The position numbers and the translations under genes were made by a program. A model generated the notes under the pieces. The model had not been told where the DNA came from and ran no database searches. It saw only the letters and a program-made list of their open reading frames with translations. Positions 19,661 through 28,453 of a DNA stretch of 60,905 nucleotides are shown here, piece after piece; position 1 is the first letter of the stretch; every line of letters begins with the position of its first letter. Location of the stretch: assembly GCA_026386845.1 (NCBI GenBank), contig JAPLMW010000028.1, positions 66,729-127,633 on the forward strand, written 5' to 3'. Source of the DNA: Phycisphaerae bacterium. Its GTDB lineage: Bacteria; Planctomycetota; Phycisphaerae; Sedimentisphaerales; UBA12454.

Positions 19661-20774
19661 GAAAGGCATATTATTACTCGAAGATGGAACATGCTTTCGC
19701 GGCTGCGGATTCGGAGCTGAAGATAAAAAGTGCGGAGAAGTAGTCTTTAATACCGCTATGAGCGGTTATCAGGAAATACTTACAGACCCTTCTTATCACG
19801 AACAGATTGTAACAATGACCTATCCTTTAATAGGCAATTACGGCACAAACACGCTGGACGTGGAATCCAATAAACCTTATCTGAGCGGATTTGTCGTAAA
19901 GGAAAACTGCAATTTCCCAAGTAATTGGCGAAATCAAATTTCGCTCGATGATTACCTTAAAAAACATAACATACCCGCTCTCGAAGACATTGACACGCGA
20001 AAATTAGTTATGCTTCTCCGCCAAACCGGTGCGATGAAAGGTATTATCTGCACAGATGGAACAAGCATTAAAAACCTGAAAGACGAACTTGACAAATATC
20101 CCGGCCTTGTTGATAGAGATATTGTAAAAAACGTCTGCACAAAGAAAAGCTATACGTGGGATAAACCTGTTGAAAATGAATTCGGCCAGACCATAAAACC
20201 ACAGGCTAAATACAACGTTATCGTTTTCGATTACGGCATAAAGCAAAATATTCTGCGGCTTTTAGTTTCGCACGGCTGCAAGGTTACGGTCGTGCCGGCA
20301 GATACAACCGCTGAAGAGGTTCTTAAACAAAAACCTGATGGCGTATTTTTGAGCAACGGCCCCGGCGACCCCGGTCCTATAAGCTATGCCATCGAAACCA
20401 TACGCAAACTGCTGGGCAAAGTACCAATATTCGGGATATGTCTCGGCCATCAGCTTTTAGGTCTTGCGGTCGGCGGCGATAGATTTAAATTAAAATTCGG
20501 CCATCACGGTGCAAACCATCCGGTCAAAAACCTAATCACCGAAAAGATTGAAATTACCAGTCAGAACCACGGATTCTGCATCGACCCGGATTCACTGCTT
20601 GATAAAGATGTGCAGATTACACATATGAATTTGAATGATAACACACTGGAAGGTTTCCGCTGCAAAAATGTGCCGGCATTTGCCGTGCAGTATCACCCCG
20701 AAGCCTCGCCCGGCCCGCACGATTCAAATTATTTGTTCGGCGAATTTATAGAACTAATGGACAAAGTAAAATAA
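19659..20774 (+). CDS. carA: Carbamoyl-phosphate synthase, small subunit
   Basis: 371 aa; VVFNTAMSGYQEILTDPSYHEQIVTMTYPLIGNYG, GICLGHQLLGLAVGG class I amidotransferase motif. Confidence 0.96.
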   Translation: MKGILLLEDGTCFRGCGFGAEDKKCGEVVFNTAMSGYQEILTDPSYHEQIVTMTYPLIGNYGTNTLDVESNKPYLSGFVVKENCNFPSNWRNQISLDDYLKKHNIPALEDIDTRKLVMLLRQTGAMKGIICTDGTSIKNLKDELDKYPGLVDRDIVKNVCTKKSYTWDKPVENEFGQTIKPQAKYNVIVFDYGIKQNILRLLVSHGCKVTVVPADTTAEEVLKQKPDGVFLSNGPGDPGPISYAIETIRKLLGKVPIFGICLGHQLLGLAVGGDRFKLKFGHHGANHPVKNLITEKIEITSQNHGFCIDPDSLLDKDVQITHMNLNDNTLEGFRCKNVPAFAVQYHPEASPGPHDSNYLFGEFIELMDKVK

Positions 20775-20781
20775 CCGCCGA

Positions 20782-23202
20782 CTATTGAAATTTCTCATAC
20801 GGCCACATTTCAAGGCCGCCGTCGAGAACCTTTACATCCTTAAAGCCCTCGTGTTTTAATATAATCGCAGCCTCATAAGCCCTGAGCGAATAATTACAAA
20901 ACGCCACAATAGGTTTATTCCTGTCAAGCTCAACAAAACGGGAACGCAGCGAAGCAAGAGGAATGAAAACCGCACCGTTCATCCTTTCGTGCTGATACTC
21001 CGACGGTGTTCTTACGTCCAGCAAAGTAAAATCCTTCTTTTCCTGTAACATCTGCCAGACTTCTTTCGGATTGATGCCGTCCATCAGGCCGTCGAGTTTG
21101 TTGCGGGCTACATTTGCGGCTGTGATAATATTGTCAATCACCGGCGAATACGGCGGAGCATAACACAAATCAAGGTTCGCAATCTGCTCAACCGTCATCT
21201 TCGCCGCAATCGCAGTCGCGGCAACATCAATTCGCTTATCGCCATTGCCGGCGCCTATGGCCTGTGCGCCGAGAAGCCTGCGGGTCTCTTTATCAACAAC
21301 AAGTTTTAACATCACAACCTCTGCACCGGGTACAAAATGCTCTCTGTCCGGCGCGGGAACAAGAACTGAAACAACATTGAAACCAGCCTGTTTGGCCGTA
21401 AATTCCGTAAGACCTGTAACGGCAACGTTATAATCAAAGACCTTACAGGCCACGGTGCCGAGGATCGGGGCAAACGTATCGTTTCCGCCGCAGATATTTA
21501 CCGCGGCCACTCTGCCCTGCTTATTAGCGGTTGAGCCGAGAGGCACATAACAGGGTTTTTGCGTAATCATATCTGTATTCTCGACGCAATCACCGGCAGC
21601 ATAAATGTCCGGGTCTGATGTCTGCATTTTAGGATTGATTTTGATACCGCCGGTTGTGCCGATTTGGAGGCCGGCCTGCTCTGCCAATGCGACATTGGGC
21701 CTGTGGCCGACCGCGATTATCACGAGATCAGCAGGATATGTGCCTCTGCCGGTTACGACTGATTCGACAGTGCCATTACCCTGAAACTTTTTCACCTCAG
21801 TCTCAATAAGAACTCGCACACCGTGCGATTCAAGCTGATTTTCGACGAGCATCGCCAATTCGCTATCGAGAAGGCGGAAAATCTGCGGAAGTTTTTCGAC
21901 AATTGTCACCCTGCAGCCTTTTTTAACAAGGGCTTCGGTCATTTCAATTCCTACAAGGCCGCCGCCGACAATAACAACATCACGAGCCTTGCCCCTGTCG
22001 AGGGCAGATTTTATACCTTCGGCATCGGTTACACCGTGAAGGGTAAAAATGTTGCCAAGCTTGATTCCTTCTATATCAGGCATAACAGCCACTGAACCGG
22101 TTGCGAGAACAAGTTTATCGTAATCGAGCAGCGATTCTACCCCATCGAGCAGATATTTTACGCGGACATATTTCTTTTTGCGGTCAATCTCAATCGCCTC
22201 GGTCTGATTCATAAGGTGAACATTCTTGACCTGCTGGAAGAATATCGGGTCGCGCACAACACCGGCAGGCGAACTCATCAGCTCGCTCTGGTCTTTGACA
22301 GTGCCGCCGATATAATACGGCAGACCGCAGCCCGCATAAGAGAGCAGCCTGCCCTTCTCGACAATAGTTACATCGGCATCGGGGTCAAGCCGCATAATTT
22401 TAGCGGCAACCTTAGGCCCCGCCGCTACTCCGCCAATTATTACTATTTTCATTGGCTTTTTCATTTTTTTATCTCCTGATATCTGCTGGGCTGCTGGTTG
22501 GGGGGCAGCCTTGAGATTTACTATAAGTTCAGCACCTCCGAGGTGCGATTTTTCGATATGGACGTTTCCGCCTACGGCGTCAACCATCGCCTTTACAAAG
22601 GCAAGGCCCAGACCGATGCCGGGCCGTGATGAGGCGTGTGCGCCGGATGTTCTGTAAAAGGGCTGAAAAACATTCCGGCGGTTTTCCTCAGAAATTCCAA
22701 TGCCCGAATCAGCGATTCTTATCTGATATGAATGAATTGAACGGTCATATAAAAGAATCATTTCAATCCTGCCGTTGTCAGGCGTGTATTTAACAGCATT
22801 CGACAGCAGTGCCTCAAGAACCTCCGTTATTGCTGCTTCAGTTCCAAATGCCCAGGCAGGTTCAGCGTCAATTTTCGCTGTAAGCGTGATATTATGCGGG
22901 CGGGCATGCTGTATCCAGGCGGCTGAGGTTTTGCGAACAAGCAGGGAAAGCTCGACCGTACCGCTGAATGCCCTGGGGTCGCTGACGGCCTTAGAGATTA
23001 TAAGAAGTCTCTGCGCGGCCTTGAGCGACTCATCACAACGCTCAATCGCCCTTTGCAGAAGGTCTTTCTGGCGAGGCGTAAGCGGGCCGGCAAATTCGCC
23101 GAGGAGCGTCTGCAAAATCGTGCCAACGGTAGAAACCGGTCCTCTGAGCTGATGAGCTACCAGCGACGCGAATTTCAGAGGGTCGGTTATAAGGTCTTTC
23201 AT
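20782..23202 (-). CDS. Fusion: histidine kinase (HisKA-HATPase), CoA-disulfide reductase-like flavoprotein, rhodanese domain
   Basis: Single open frame (ORF opens 23214): H-box VAHQLRGP, N-box LSNAVKYT, DSGIGIS, GIGLGLAFVKAMV; then IVIIGGVAAGPKVAAKI, SYAGCGLPYYIGG, AAGDCVE; then LLDVRTPSEYQ and FCNYSLRA. Confidence 0.88.
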   Translation of the reverse strand: MKDLITDPLKFASLVAHQLRGPVSTVGTILQTLLGEFAGPLTPRQKDLLQRAIERCDESLKAAQRLLIISKAVSDPRAFSGTVELSLLVRKTSAAWIQHARPHNITLTAKIDAEPAWAFGTEAAITEVLEALLSNAVKYTPDNGRIEMILLYDRSIHSYQIRIADSGIGISEENRRNVFQPFYRTSGAHASSRPGIGLGLAFVKAMVDAVGGNVHIEKSHLGGAELIVNLKAAPQPAAQQISGDKKMKKPMKIVIIGGVAAGPKVAAKIMRLDPDADVTIVEKGRLLSYAGCGLPYYIGGTVKDQSELMSSPAGVVRDPIFFQQVKNVHLMNQTEAIEIDRKKKYVRVKYLLDGVESLLDYDKLVLATGSVAVMPDIEGIKLGNIFTLHGVTDAEGIKSALDRGKARDVVIVGGGLVGIEMTEALVKKGCRVTIVEKLPQIFRLLDSELAMLVENQLESHGVRVLIETEVKKFQGNGTVESVVTGRGTYPADLVIIAVGHRPNVALAEQAGLQIGTTGGIKINPKMQTSDPDIYAAGDCVENTDMITQKPCYVPLGSTANKQGRVAAVNICGGNDTFAPILGTVACKVFDYNVAVTGLTEFTAKQAGFNVVSVLVPAPDREHFVPGAEVVMLKLVVDKETRRLLGAQAIGAGNGDKRIDVAATAIAAKMTVEQIANLDLCYAPPYSPVIDNIITAANVARNKLDGLMDGINPKEVWQMLQEKKDFTLLDVRTPSEYQHERMNGAVFIPLASLRSRFVELDRNKPIVAFCNYSLRAYEAAIILKHEGFKDVKVLDGGLEMWPYEKFQ

Positions 23203-23287
23203 ACAAATTAACATTATACTTTATGTTAAAAACATTGGCAATAATTGAAATTTGTCAGATTATTTAATTTATGCTATACTAATTTGT

Positions 23288-25015
23288 ATGACTGTCAGGG
23301 ATGAAAAATTATTTGAAAAATTGCTGATACCGATAAGGAAAGTTACCTTTCAAAAGGGTTTTTTCCAGACCGGCAAGACATTCAAGCCGAAAACATATCA
23401 CGATAAAACAGTCAAAAACGGCGAAGGATACAAAATCAGGATTACGCCAAGAGGAATTGAAGTTTTCGCCGCGACAGACGCCGGAGTATATTATGCCATA
23501 CAGACATTAAAAGACCTTGCGAAGATTTACGGAAACAGGCTGCCTGCATGCGTAATAGAGGACGAGCCGGACTTTAAAAGACGAGGCGTTTACCTTGACT
23601 GTTCCAGAGGAAAAGTGCCGAAACTTAAGACGCTTAAGGATTTAGTTATACGACTTGCACACTGGAAAATAAACGAATTGCAGTTATATATCGAAAATGT
23701 CTTTGCCTTCAAAAAACATCCCCAAATCGGCAAAGGTTACAGTCCATTTACGCCGGATGAGATTCTCGAACTTCAGGATTATTGCCGGATGCACCACATA
23801 AAACTGGTTGGTTCACTGGCGAGTTTCGGTCATTTTGAAAAAATCCTCGCTCTGCCGAAATATCGCCATCTCGGCGAGATGCCCGGTTTCAGGGGTTTTC
23901 CCGGAGGCACAACGCTCTGCCCTGCCGATGCCGGCTCGATTAAACTTGTCAGCGAACTTTACAGCGAATTTATACCGCTGTTTGAGGCAAAGGATTTTAA
24001 TGTCTGCTGCGATGAAACGTGGGAATTAGGTAAAGGCCGAAGCAAAAAATTGGCAGACCGTATCGGAACAGGTCGGGTTTATCTGGAGTTCCTTTTAAAA
24101 ATTTATCGCCTGTGTCAAAAATATGGAAAACGAATGAATGTTTGGGCAGATATTGTCCTCAAATATCCCGAATTGATGAGCAAATTGCCAAAAGATATAG
24201 TCCTGCTTAACTGGGAATATGAACAGGACGGTAAAAACATTTATAAAACCAAAGACATAGCTAAAGCAAAAATTCCTTTTATGGTCTGCCCCGGCACAAG
24301 CGGCTGGCTGACTCACGGTTCCCGGCTGCCTAATTCAATAACGAATGTAACTAATTTTGCTGCGCAAGGTCGTAAATTTGGCGCCGAAGGCCTGCTCAAT
24401 ACCGACTGGGGTGATAACGGCCATCGCAATTTTCTGGGAGCAAGCCTTCATAGTTTTGCACATGGAGCGGCACATAGCTGGAACGGCAAAGCGGTTGATA
24501 ATGCTAAATTTACCGACAATTTCTGCACGCATTTTTTCGGCGAACATACGGGCCGATTGGCCAATGCAATTCGTTTACTGGGCAGCACTTACATTACCTG
24601 TGGAACAAACGTTCCGAACAAAAGCTGGCTGTATTTCGCACTCATTGAGCCCATAAAAAACAATCAACCTGATAATCCGATTGATTTGATGAAAGAAAAA
24701 GGCCTGCGAAAAATAATCGAGCAACTTTCAGATGAATCTATCTGGCCGAAATTGCCGAAATCGGCTGAAAATTTCGAAAAAATCTCTTTTGACGAATTGA
24801 AACTTGCCGCGAAAATGGATTGTCTCTCCGCAAGGCGGGCACTTGCGGTAAAAATCCTGCGGGCCGGCAAAAAAGTAAATAAGAAGGAATTACAGTTCAT
24901 AAATAAACAGATGAAGAATATAGCAAAAGACTTTAAGAAATTGTGGCTGATACGAAATAAAGTCTCACGTTTGCAAGATAACTTACGATTATTCAAACAG
25001 GCAGGAATAAAATAA
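23288..25015 (+). CDS. Glycoside hydrolase family 20-like beta-N-acetylhexosaminidase
   Basis: DAGVYYAIQTLKDL, RRGVYLDCSRGKVP, catalytic-type FNVCCDETWELG; adjacent to anmK/murQ. ATG 23288 preferred over the ORF-track start 23252. Confidence 0.75.
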   Translation: MTVRDEKLFEKLLIPIRKVTFQKGFFQTGKTFKPKTYHDKTVKNGEGYKIRITPRGIEVFAATDAGVYYAIQTLKDLAKIYGNRLPACVIEDEPDFKRRGVYLDCSRGKVPKLKTLKDLVIRLAHWKINELQLYIENVFAFKKHPQIGKGYSPFTPDEILELQDYCRMHHIKLVGSLASFGHFEKILALPKYRHLGEMPGFRGFPGGTTLCPADAGSIKLVSELYSEFIPLFEAKDFNVCCDETWELGKGRSKKLADRIGTGRVYLEFLLKIYRLCQKYGKRMNVWADIVLKYPELMSKLPKDIVLLNWEYEQDGKNIYKTKDIAKAKIPFMVCPGTSGWLTHGSRLPNSITNVTNFAAQGRKFGAEGLLNTDWGDNGHRNFLGASLHSFAHGAAHSWNGKAVDNAKFTDNFCTHFFGEHTGRLANAIRLLGSTYITCGTNVPNKSWLYFALIEPIKNNQPDNPIDLMKEKGLRKIIEQLSDESIWPKLPKSAENFEKISFDELKLAAKMDCLSARRALAVKILRAGKKVNKKELQFINKQMKNIAKDFKKLWLIRNKVSRLQDNLRLFKQAGIK

Positions 25016-26124
25016 TGCGTATAGTCGGTTTAATGTCAGGCACAAGTGCTGACGGCGTTGATGCCGCTGTTGTTGACATCAATAAAAACAAAGTTAAACT
25101 GCTGGCTTTTGACACATTCGAATACTCACCGCAATTAAGAAAAAATATTCTTGATATTGCCGAACAAAAAACCTGCAGGGCCGCGGATATCAGCCGACTG
25201 AATTTCGCTATCGGAGAAGTTTTTGCTGATGCAGTTATCAAATTATGCAGAAAAAATAAAATCAATCTGAAAACTATTGATTTGATAGGTTCGCACGGCC
25301 AAACGATTTATCATAATCCAAAAGGTAAAATCCGCTCAACGCTCCAGATTGGCGAACCATCCGTAATTGCTTATAAAACCGGGAAAACCTGCGTAGCGGA
25401 TTTCAGGCCAAAAGATATGGCGGCAGGCGGACAAGGCGCTCCCCTGGTGCCATTCGCGGATTACTGGCTGTTCAAACATAAAAGAAAAAACCGGGCCGTT
25501 CAGAATATCGGTGGAATCGCCAATGTAACCTATCTTCCTGCGGGGACAGGACTTAAAAAAACAATCGCCTTCGATACAGGGCCGGGAAATATGATTATCG
25601 ACCGAATCGCAACTATTTTCAGCAAAGGAAAATTACATTACGATAAAGACGGTAAAATCGCCGCGAAAGGCAAGGTAAATAAAAAACTGCTCGATGAAAT
25701 GATGAGGCATCCGTTTCTGCGGAAATTACCGCCTAAATCGACCGGCAGAGAAGAATTCGGAGCGGCTTATACCGGAAAATTTATTAAACGGTCGATATCG
25801 TTTGAGGATATGCTCGCTACCGCCACCGCTTTTACAGCCGATAGTATCGTAGATGCGTATAAAAAATTCCTGCCTTCCATGCCGGACGAAATAATACTCT
25901 GCGGCGGCGGCGCGAAAAATAAAACGTTAGTTAAAATGCTGCGGCAGAATATAAAAAGCAAAATACTTTTGACCGATGATTTCGGCATAAACAGCGATGC
26001 CAAAGAAGCCGTCTCTTTTGCCATCTTGGCTTATGCAGCAATAAAGGGCATCGCAAATAACGTCCCCGGCGCTACAGGGGCAAAAAAATCATTAGTTTTA
26101 GGGAAAGTAATACCGGCACAATGA
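25015..26124 (+). CDS. anmK: Anhydro-N-acetylmuramic acid kinase
   Basis: 369 aa; GLMSGTSADGVDAAVVDI, GSHGQTIYHNP, FDTGPGNMIID. Confidence 0.95.
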   Translation: MRIVGLMSGTSADGVDAAVVDINKNKVKLLAFDTFEYSPQLRKNILDIAEQKTCRAADISRLNFAIGEVFADAVIKLCRKNKINLKTIDLIGSHGQTIYHNPKGKIRSTLQIGEPSVIAYKTGKTCVADFRPKDMAAGGQGAPLVPFADYWLFKHKRKNRAVQNIGGIANVTYLPAGTGLKKTIAFDTGPGNMIIDRIATIFSKGKLHYDKDGKIAAKGKVNKKLLDEMMRHPFLRKLPPKSTGREEFGAAYTGKFIKRSISFEDMLATATAFTADSIVDAYKKFLPSMPDEIILCGGGAKNKTLVKMLRQNIKSKILLTDDFGINSDAKEAVSFAILAYAAIKGIANNVPGATGAKKSLVLGKVIPAQ

Positions 26125-27029
26125 AAACACATAAATTACTTCCAACCACAGAAAAGCGTAATCGCAGAAGCAGGAACATCGACCGGTTGTCAACTATGCA
26201 AATAGTTAAGTTAATCAACGCAGAAGACAGATTAGTCGCACCGGCAGTCGGCAAAGAGTATAAAAAAATTGCCGCGGCGGTCGATATGATAGTCGAGCGT
26301 TTTAAGAAAAACGGCAGGCTCTTTTACGTCGGGGCCGGCACAAGCGGCAGGCTCGGCGTTTTAGACGCCTCGGAATGTCCGCCGACATTCGGCGTAAGCC
26401 CCCTGCTGGTGCGGGGCATTATCGCTGGCGGCAAACGGGCATTGGTAAGGGCTGTTGAAGGAGCTGAAGATAAGGTAAATGACGGCGTTGCCGCTATAAA
26501 CAGATACAAAATTTCCGCAAAAGATGTTGTCGTCGGCATCGCAGCTTGCGGACTTACGCCCTTTGTGAGGGTCGCACTGAAAGAAGCAATGAAAAAAGGG
26601 GCTGGCACAATTTTTATCACCTGTGCGCCGGAGGCAATCAAAGATATCCCGGCCCAAATAATTATAAATCCTGTCGTCGGGCCGGAGGTAATCACCGGCT
26701 CAACAAGAATGAAGGCAGGCACCGCGACAAAACTTGTACTTAATACTCTTACGACTACGGCTATGATAAAGATGGGTAAAGTTTATGGCAATCTGATGGT
26801 TGACCTGATGGCGACAAATAATAAATTACGAGACAGGTCTGTTCGAATTGTTTCAGAAATGACCGGTTTATCTAAATCAAAAACTGCCAGTCTCCTCAAA
26901 AAAGCAAAAGGAAAAGTTAAGACTGCTATTGTGATGCACTTTCGCGGTATTGATTTTCAGCAGGCTGAAAATATCCTCAACAAAAATGAACAATCTTTGA
27001 GGAAAGCAATAGGAAGACAATGGTTTTGA
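26121..27029 (+). CDS. murQ: N-acetylmuramic acid 6-phosphate etherase
   Basis: 302 aa; RNIDRLST, YVGAGTSGRLGVLDASECPPTFG, GPEVITGSTRMKAGTATKLVLN. Confidence 0.95.
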   Translation: MKTHKLLPTTEKRNRRSRNIDRLSTMQIVKLINAEDRLVAPAVGKEYKKIAAAVDMIVERFKKNGRLFYVGAGTSGRLGVLDASECPPTFGVSPLLVRGIIAGGKRALVRAVEGAEDKVNDGVAAINRYKISAKDVVVGIAACGLTPFVRVALKEAMKKGAGTIFITCAPEAIKDIPAQIIINPVVGPEVITGSTRMKAGTATKLVLNTLTTTAMIKMGKVYGNLMVDLMATNNKLRDRSVRIVSEMTGLSKSKTASLLKKAKGKVKTAIVMHFRGIDFQQAENILNKNEQSLRKAIGRQWF

Positions 27030-28453
27030 GCGGAATTGATTTAACAATAGTTTTATCGGCGGTTTTTCTGCTTTTTGTAATTTCCTATATTTTTGGCCGC
27101 AGGGAAAAAAACACAAATGATTTCTTCCTCGGTGAAAGAAAAATCCCTTCCATTGTGGCCTGTCTGTCTTTTGTCGCTACTGAAGTCAGCGCACTGACAA
27201 TTGTAGGAGTACCTGCAACCGCTTACAGCGAAAACTGGGAGTATCTGCAATTTTTCATTGGCTCGGCGGCAGCGCGAATAATGGTAGCATTCTTATTTAT
27301 TCCTGTTTTTTACAAATATAATTGTACAAGTATTTATGAGTTTTTAAGGCATCGTTTCGGACCCCAAACTCAATACGCCGGCTCGATTTTCTTCTTTGTT
27401 ACACGTCTAACAGCTTCAGGCGTAAGGCTTTATGCAGCCTGTATGGGAATCGGGATTATTTTAGGGTGGAGCCTGGGACAATCGCTGCTTATTTTCACTA
27501 TTGTAAGCATCATTTTTATCGCATTTGGCGGAATAAAAGCAGTTGTCTGGGCCGGAGCATACCAGACTATCATTTTTTTCTCCGCAGGTATCGCATTATT
27601 AATATATCTTTATTTACATATTGAAGGCGGTCTATCATCTGCATGGCAGATAGCAGATAATGCAGGACGATTGAGTATTTTTAAATTCGATTTTAACCTC
27701 AACGACCCCACAACTTTCTGGGCAGGTACTGCCAACGCTTTTTTTATCGGTTTGGCGGTTTTTGGCACAGACCAGGAACTAATGCAGCGATTGCTCACCG
27801 TTAAAACAAGAAAGAAAAGTCAAAACGCGATTTTCCTGACAATAGCAACAGCGTTTCCAATACTCTGCATATATCTTGCAATCGGCACTTTGCTTTACGT
27901 GTTCTTCCAGCAAAATCCTCAGGCAATCCAGCCGGCAAAGACCAAAGAGGTTATTTCGTATTTTACGGCAAATTTTTTGCCGGCAGGGTTGAAAGGACTA
28001 ATCCTTTCAGCGATTATATTAGCCAGTATAGATTCGCCGCTAAGCTCGCTGTCGTCTTCATTCGTGATGGATATCTATCGCCCTCTTATCAGGAAAAACG
28101 CGACTGAAAAACACTATTTATTTATCTCGCGGACTGGAGTAATTGGTTTTGGTTTAATTTTAGCGATTATTGCGATAACTTGTCAGCCGGTCGAAAATAT
28201 TCTGTGGTTTGCATTCGAGATAATTTCTCTTACCGGCGGAGCTACGCTGGGCATTTTTCTGCTCGGCGTTCTTACAAAAAGGAAAGCAAATATCGGCAAT
28301 GTCGTAGCGATGATTATCAGTACCCTATCTATGATTGCACTGCTACTTCTTTCCCATAAAGGAGTTATAAATCTGGCGTGGAGCTGGCTGATTGTCTTAG
28401 GAACGGCGATGACTTTTGCCCTGAGTTATCTTTTCAGTATTTATCGCAAATAA
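27020..28453 (+). CDS. Sodium:solute symporter family transporter
   Basis: 477 aa, multiple TM helices; GRREKNTNDFFLGERKIP, FGGIKAVVWAGAYQTIIFF, ILASIDSPLSSLSSSFVMDIY; overlaps murQ by 10 bp. Confidence 0.88.
   Translation: MVLSGIDLTIVLSAVFLLFVISYIFGRREKNTNDFFLGERKIPSIVACLSFVATEVSALTIVGVPATAYSENWEYLQFFIGSAAARIMVAFLFIPVFYKYNCTSIYEFLRHRFGPQTQYAGSIFFFVTRLTASGVRLYAACMGIGIILGWSLGQSLLIFTIVSIIFIAFGGIKAVVWAGAYQTIIFFSAGIALLIYLYLHIEGGLSSAWQIADNAGRLSIFKFDFNLNDPTTFWAGTANAFFIGLAVFGTDQELMQRLLTVKTRKKSQNAIFLTIATAFPILCIYLAIGTLLYVFFQQNPQAIQPAKTKEVISYFTANFLPAGLKGLILSAIILASIDSPLSSLSSSFVMDIYRPLIRKNATEKHYLFISRTGVIGFGLILAIIAITCQPVENILWFAFEIISLTGGATLGIFLLGVLTKRKANIGNVVAMIISTLSMIALLLLSHKGVINLAWSWLIVLGTAMTFALSYLFSIYRK

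Follow-up and report, generated by a model that had tools for sequence, protein, structure and literature searches.

What does a histidine kinase sense when a single gene joins it to a flavoenzyme and a rhodanese? The question is raised by a gene on contig JAPLMW010000028.1 of a Phycisphaerae bacterium, within a stretch of 60,905 nucleotides that we analysed as a whole and call the window. A first-pass annotation of this DNA had read one frame encoding a kinase, a flavoprotein of the CoA-disulfide reductase (CoADR) type and a rhodanese, and had proposed that the last two report thiol, CoA-disulfide or sulfane-sulfur state to the first.

Architecture of the fused gene

The description of the gene proved accurate in its coordinates, to which we add the minus strand, and in its motifs, all of which are present. 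The frame is open from the ATG at 23202 to the stop at 20782 and encodes 806 aa in the order HisKA-HATPase, CoADR/NPSR-type flavoprotein, rhodanese (Table 1). In Pfam (positions in an 810-aa numbering counted from the ATG at 23214), HATPase_c matches at 126-236 (2e-20, 73.5 bits against a cut-off of 26.4), Pyr_redox_2 at 255-547 (6e-66), Pyr_redox_dim at 589-693 (1e-18) and Rhodanese at 716-804 (2e-18). HisKA, at 14-75, scores 22.0 bits, under its cut-off of 26.9, but the DHp helices are predicted by AlphaFold.

Table 1. Features of the fused gene (window positions) and of the predicted partner receivers (locus positions)
Feature	Position	Strand	Basis
Whole fused gene, 806 aa	20782..23202	-	Open frame; Pfam; full-length homologues
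Promoter-like TTGCCA-17-TATAAT	23213..23241	-	11/12 matches, consensus only
DHp (HisKA) two-helix domain, residues 8-74	22981..23181	-	Pfam; AlphaFold helices 8-34 and 43-74
His17, phospho-acceptor of the AHQL box	23152..23154	-	Invariant in 23/23 fused proteins
Cys56, DHp helix 2	23035..23037	-	26/26 fused kinases, 0/10 nearest unfused kinases
HATPase_c domain, N/G1/F/G2 boxes	22507..22839	-	Pfam; invariant Asn135, DSGxG 165-169, G195/G197/G199
Internal Shine-Dalgarno AGGAG, 8 nt before ATG 22464	22473..22477	-	Sequence; Shine-Dalgarno and start in 13/24 fused genes
In-frame ATG at Met247, putative start codon of a 560-aa reductase-rhodanese free of the kinase	22462..22464	-	Sequence; unfused-orthologue lengths
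Variable linker, residues 233-250	22453..22506	-	Alignment; pLDDT below 50 at 237-247
CoADR/NPSR-type FAD/NADH flavoprotein, residues 251-699	21106..22452	-	Pfam; phmmer to 6pfz 2e-151; Foldseek 6pfz target TM 0.95
Cys292, flavin-proximal redox Cys (Cys43 position)	22327..22329	-	Invariant in 23/23
Rhodanese domain, residues 712-800	20803..21069	-	Pfam
Cys769, rhodanese loop CNYSLR	20896..20898	-	Present in window copy; Ser or Gly in 7/25 fused relatives
Operon-end orphan receivers	L183-L197 (e.g. L184:7243-7617, L186:5964-6338); L086:5169-5543		Directly after maturation protease

The -10 box of the promoter-like sequence ends 10 bases upstream of the ATG at 23202, so the mRNA of the fusion is probably almost leaderless; no Shine-Dalgarno sequence lies upstream of this start. 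An in-frame ATG at 23214 was considered and rejected because it overlaps the -10 box, and the start at 23202 is preferred for the same reason. The interval 23202-23291 holds divergent promoters: the opposite gene (ATG near 23291) likewise has its -10 box some 10 bases ahead of the start codon, and both mRNAs look near-leaderless. Downstream, a convergent gene that is carA-like by sequence ends at 20774. On the other side, opposite the fusion, genes recognised by eye as glycosidase-like, anhydro-MurNAc kinase-like, MurQ-like and sodium/solute symporter-like occupy 23252-28453, probably a cluster for cell-wall sugar recycling.

Conservation and origin of the fusion

The source genome is fragmented into 96 contigs, and two adjacent genes could in principle have been merged by an assembly or sequencing error. 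This explanation is refuted, and its probability is negligible: the same domain order in an open frame recurs in about 25 other assembled genomes, and these full-length homologues, 54-82% identical and free of stops, exclude a stop or frameshift hidden at the junction. The fusion is therefore genuine, not an artefact, and is conserved in a group of anaerobic Planctomycetota. It is spread over at least eight Phycisphaerae families (f1, f4, f5, f6, f7, f16, f18 and f26, among 298 genomes of the class) and one genome of another Planctomycetota class (G608, 54% identity, among 392 genomes drawn across the phylum). Complete copies occur in 15 of 58 related genomes, the window's own not counted, and a further copy, in G051, runs off the end of its contig. 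An exact-peptide scan of 85,462 genomes, which reaches close relatives and is the sole basis for judging the spread outside Planctomycetota, retrieved the full-length fusion in seven named Planctomycetota MAGs (L003-L009, 56-82% identity). Our literature searches found no prior description of such a kinase-persulfide reductase fusion.

In the tree of kinase domains, all 26 fused rows group in a single clade supported at 100/100, which suggests a single origin on the kinase side. The reductase half also exists unfused, as orthologues 55-65% identical to it, and the reductase tree requires three changes between the fused and unfused labels, a pattern compatible with one fusion followed by losses or with an extra transfer. 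Next to these unfused orthologues we saw no separate gene for the same kinase, some of the contigs being short. That the two parts are always separate elsewhere is ruled out by the full-length fusions; the unfused orthologues have other neighbours (thioredoxin, PAS-sigma54 activators). In two complete genomes (L060:7217-9261 in G023 and L061:7700-9744 in G019) the unfused gene follows, on the same strand, a thioredoxin-like gene and a PAS-sigma54 activator.

An intact kinase with its candidate input behind it

All the kinase boxes are intact, as first reported, and the phospho-acceptor histidine, the N-box asparagine, the G1 motif (D165-G169) and the G2 glycines are invariant among the 23 fused proteins aligned. 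The soluble parts of Thermotoga maritima HK853 (2c2a, 3dge) have the same DHp and catalytic domains with all their boxes. Kinases of the HK853 type carry N-terminal sensor parts, whereas the only candidate input of the window protein is C-terminal. In the aligned fused proteins there is neither an N-terminal nor a membrane sensor: the kinase begins no more than about 25 residues into the protein, and for this reason the flavoenzyme behind it is its only candidate input. The first-pass remark that the kinase has no other sensor domain thus extends to the aligned relatives. Neither a PAS nor a hydrogenase domain was detected by Pfam, and the fused protein consequently does not match the H2-sensing HupUV/HoxBC-HoxJ systems (a regulatory hydrogenase with a PAS kinase).

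The nearest unfused kinase domains belong to PilS-like membrane kinases of Phycisphaerae, with six transmembrane segments (PF25323), although their position as sister group is weakly supported (91/79). They have a membrane sensor in place of the flavoenzyme, and they lack Cys56, a residue of the dimerisation helix that may couple redox state to the kinase. In the AlphaFold model of the window protein (mean pLDDT 84, pTM 0.62), the DHp helices and the ATPase domain are separated from the enzyme by a linker that is disordered at 237-247; the placement of kinase relative to enzyme is not to be trusted.

A flavoenzyme close to NADH-dependent persulfide reductases

The enzyme part has its FAD, NADH and dimerisation domains together with the flavin-proximal cysteine, and the NADH-binding glycines and Glu436, which follows the NADH Rossmann motif, are invariant in the 23 aligned fused proteins. 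Its best sequence match is the NADH-dependent persulfide reductase (NPSR) of Archaeoglobus fulgidus (6pfz), with 45% identity over 552 columns, and Foldseek matched it to the same structure, to Bacillus anthracis CoADR-RHD and to Enterococcus faecalis CoAPR. Against the NCBIfam model of CoA-disulfide reductase (TIGR03385) it scores 431.9 bits, short of the cut-off of 578.8, and it likewise falls short for PRK09564 (388.7 against 458). As for the catalytic tyrosine pair of CoA-disulfide reductase (Tyr361/Tyr419 of the Staphylococcus aureus enzyme), the window protein, judged by alignment only, retains the YAPPY tyrosine and has FVP for the YYP motif of the solved enzymes. With NADH, the A. fulgidus enzyme (AfNpsr) reduces persulfides and polysulfide; it is inactive on CoA disulfide (PMC7969121). 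Considering this inactivity, the best match to 6pfz and the missed NCBIfam cut-off, NPSR-like is, on sequence grounds, a better label than CoA-disulfide reductase. Of the first-pass claim of a full CoADR-type flavoprotein with an active-site cysteine, the flavoprotein and Cys292 stand, while a true CoA-disulfide reductase does not.

AfNpsr and the NPSR of Shewanella loihica (3nta) have the same order of FAD-CoADR and rhodanese parts, with the redox and rhodanese cysteines at the same positions; they differ in having no kinase, whereas the window protein has HisKA-HATPase in front and several of its fused relatives are without the rhodanese cysteine. B. anthracis CoADR-RHD (3icr) and E. faecalis CoAPR (8a56) are the same two-domain enzyme, 36-37% identical and stand-alone. 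In CoAPR, the flavin-site and rhodanese cysteines are both required, and the enzyme is controlled by the persulfide repressor CstR (PMC9405070), in contrast to the fusion to a kinase found here.

Variation of the rhodanese cysteine

The first-pass annotation had laid its emphasis on a sulfane-sulfur sensor, in which a persulfide on the rhodanese cysteine would be read by the kinase. The window copy does have the full CNYSLR loop, and the rhodanese cysteine of E. faecalis CoAPR is the one persulfidated in cells (PMC9405070). However, the changes to Ser or Gly listed in Table 1 fall in no fewer than four separate lineages of the tree, compared with no loss in 15 unfused orthologues, one of which (L071) begins at a contig edge and may be a cut fusion (Fisher p = 0.026, with no correction for descent); Cys292 and the glycines of the NADH site, by contrast, never vary. 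A sulfane-sulfur signal read at the rhodanese cannot hold for the whole family if so many fused proteins are without this cysteine, and we regard such a sensor as quite unlikely. The alignment suggests that the fused family keeps the flavin/Cys/CoA/NADH site and that rhodanese chemistry is optional. Within the window's own family, the loop of one member (L079, in G004) reads SSYSLR in place of CNYSLR, its rhodanese cysteine having been lost recently; this is also the one member of that family with the fusion beside Rex and a HydB-type hydrogenase.

An internal start and a predicted second product

The DNA at the junction between kinase and enzyme reads AGGAG, 8 nt, ATG (22477-22462), in frame and at the point where unfused orthologues begin; these orthologues are 559-583 aa long. 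One of the 13 junction sites counted in Table 1 is marginal (L070), and the background is 4% of comparable windows within the same genes. The resulting nominal p of about 1e-12 is overstated, since the genes are related, although several deep lineages share the site; the protein linker around the junction is otherwise poorly conserved. Shine-Dalgarno signals appear to be in use in this organism, as 13 of the 36 long frames of the window (about a third) have one before their first ATG. Two proteins are therefore probably made from the gene, the 806-aa kinase-enzyme and a free enzyme of 560 aa. In about half of the family (e.g., L067, L077 and L083-L087) the junction signal is missing, and these lineages would be able to make only the fused form.

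These data also bear on whether the two halves communicate at all. The fusion might merely tether them, for shared dimerisation, co-expression or localisation, with a kinase that reads something else or is constitutive. The disordered and variable linker, the internal start that permits the enzyme alone, and the free change of the linker in L077 and L083, two members of one family, are all in keeping with such tethering. The fusion has nevertheless been kept over large divergence, even where the internal start was lost and only the fused form is possible, and the kinase has kept no other sensor; we consider tethering without cross-talk unlikely.

Receivers, hydrogenases and a predicted partner

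No response regulator is found near the window copy, all 26 receiver matches of the genome being off its 127-kb contig. The first-pass statement to this effect is right for the window and does not extend to the family: five relatives have a receiver-only regulator at most 200 bp away from the fusion (L064 in f4, L067 and L068 in f7, L084 and L086 in f16). These receivers are not all of one type.

Six loci have the fusion beside [NiFe]-hydrogenase genes (L064, L067, L072, L076, L079 and L086, in families f4, f7, f6, f1 and f16), three of them with Rex (L064, L072, L079). Under rough but generous assumptions, adjacency in 6 of 24 loci has a chance probability of about 3e-5, while the contrast with unfused loci (0/10, p = 0.10) is only suggestive; in the window's own family the fusion is usually away from any hydrogenase or receiver. 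Several of the nearest unfused kinases also adjoin a receiver, and some of these are directly upstream of Rex-HydB-HydG-ferredoxin-NuoH/B/C/D-like operons, a neighbourhood similar to that of the fusion. Among the PilS-like kinase and receiver pairs (L092, L093 and L094, with L095-L097 and L100), the first three lie upstream of a hydrogenase operon in which HydB/HydG of the sulfhydrogenase type are combined with NuoH/B/C/D-like subunits; L092 also has Rex.

A more specific candidate is provided by an NAD-linked [NiFe]-hydrogenase operon, which encodes a NuoEF-like fusion, a HoxU-like protein, small and large subunits, a maturation protease and then an orphan receiver. This receiver is the last gene of the operon in 15 genomes read besides the window's and is 55-73% identical to the receiver of L086. 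No kinase adjoins it in these genomes except the fusion in G076, whose gene abuts the receiver, and, in G035, part of a second fusion copy truncated by the contig end. Across 59 genomes, 12 have both the fusion and the NAD-linked hydrogenase, 5 the fusion only, 4 the hydrogenase only and 38 neither (p = 7e-6, or 0.0035 outside the window's family, with no correction for descent). The genomes with hydrogenase and receiver in which we found no fusion are G008, G011, G012 and G054. The window's genome has the operon, and its contig ends inside the large-subunit gene, ahead of the expected position of the receiver; this would explain why none of its 26 receiver matches is close to that of G076 (best, 31%). 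Neither a HydB-type subunit nor an [FeFe] hydrogenase was matched in this genome. Taken together, the context points to hydrogenase/NADH redox control, with the orphan receiver at the end of the NAD-linked operon as the most likely phosphotransfer partner that we can predict.

Control could also run the other way, from kinase to enzyme, with ATP or phosphorylation state tuning persulfide reduction. Both halves are intact, only two rhodanese matches occur in the window's genome, and the matches listed for the reductase include no second full one there, so that enzyme function may matter most. The adjacent receivers in five relatives, however, indicate a phosphorelay output, and loss of the rhodanese cysteine in several lineages is at odds with enzymatic output as the main constraint; we judge control in this direction improbable.

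Proposed mechanism and implications

With its kinase intact and the flavoenzyme as its only candidate input, the most economical reading of the protein is a thiol/flavin redox-sensing kinase. The proposal that reductase and rhodanese report to the kinase is retained in this form, changed in that the rhodanese signal is not general and the enzyme is nearer to NPSR. We place middling confidence in a cytosolic redox-sensing kinase that has a C-terminal NPSR-type flavoenzyme as its sensor, an output to the hydrogenase-operon receiver and a free reductase made from the internal start. The protein would act in the cytosol as a sensor histidine kinase, presumably as a homodimer, in which the state of the FAD-Cys292-CoA site, with NADH on one side and CoA persulfide or polysulfide on the other, would set autophosphorylation of His17. 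From the flavin site this state would be passed on to the dimer's DHp helices, where Cys56 may be the thiol that couples it to the kinase. The phosphoryl group would then pass to a stand-alone receiver, most likely the orphan receiver of the NAD-linked [NiFe]-hydrogenase operon, and H2/NADH metabolism would follow the redox and sulfur state of the cell. In lineages with the internal Shine-Dalgarno sequence, the window's included, the same mRNA would also give free reductase-rhodanese, so that sensor and enzyme would share one gene.

The component families are known; what would be new is a kinase whose sole input is an entire persulfide reductase on its C-terminal side, in a gene with an internal start from which the enzyme would be made on its own. 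Rex and NifL are regulators that read NADH or flavin state, and CheA is a kinase with a C-terminal regulatory domain; these proteins share part of the logic proposed here and are unrelated to the fusion. That the family represents a new class of sensor kinase, having a complete catalytic NADH:persulfide reductase behind the kinase as sensor, the same gene also giving free enzyme, and an output to the hydrogenase-operon receiver, is a possibility that we put forward tentatively.

Persulfide and NADH states are usually read by one-component repressors such as CstR, SqrR and Rex. If the reading is true, a kinase whose one input is a whole persulfide reductase would be a different solution. Natural variants within the family, with and without the rhodanese cysteine and with and without the internal start, allow a test of which part is read, and the genomic context offers a concrete candidate partner for the orphan receiver that ends the hydrogenase operon in 15 genomes. 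If the proposal is true, the fusion would directly link NADH/sulfur redox state to hydrogen metabolism.
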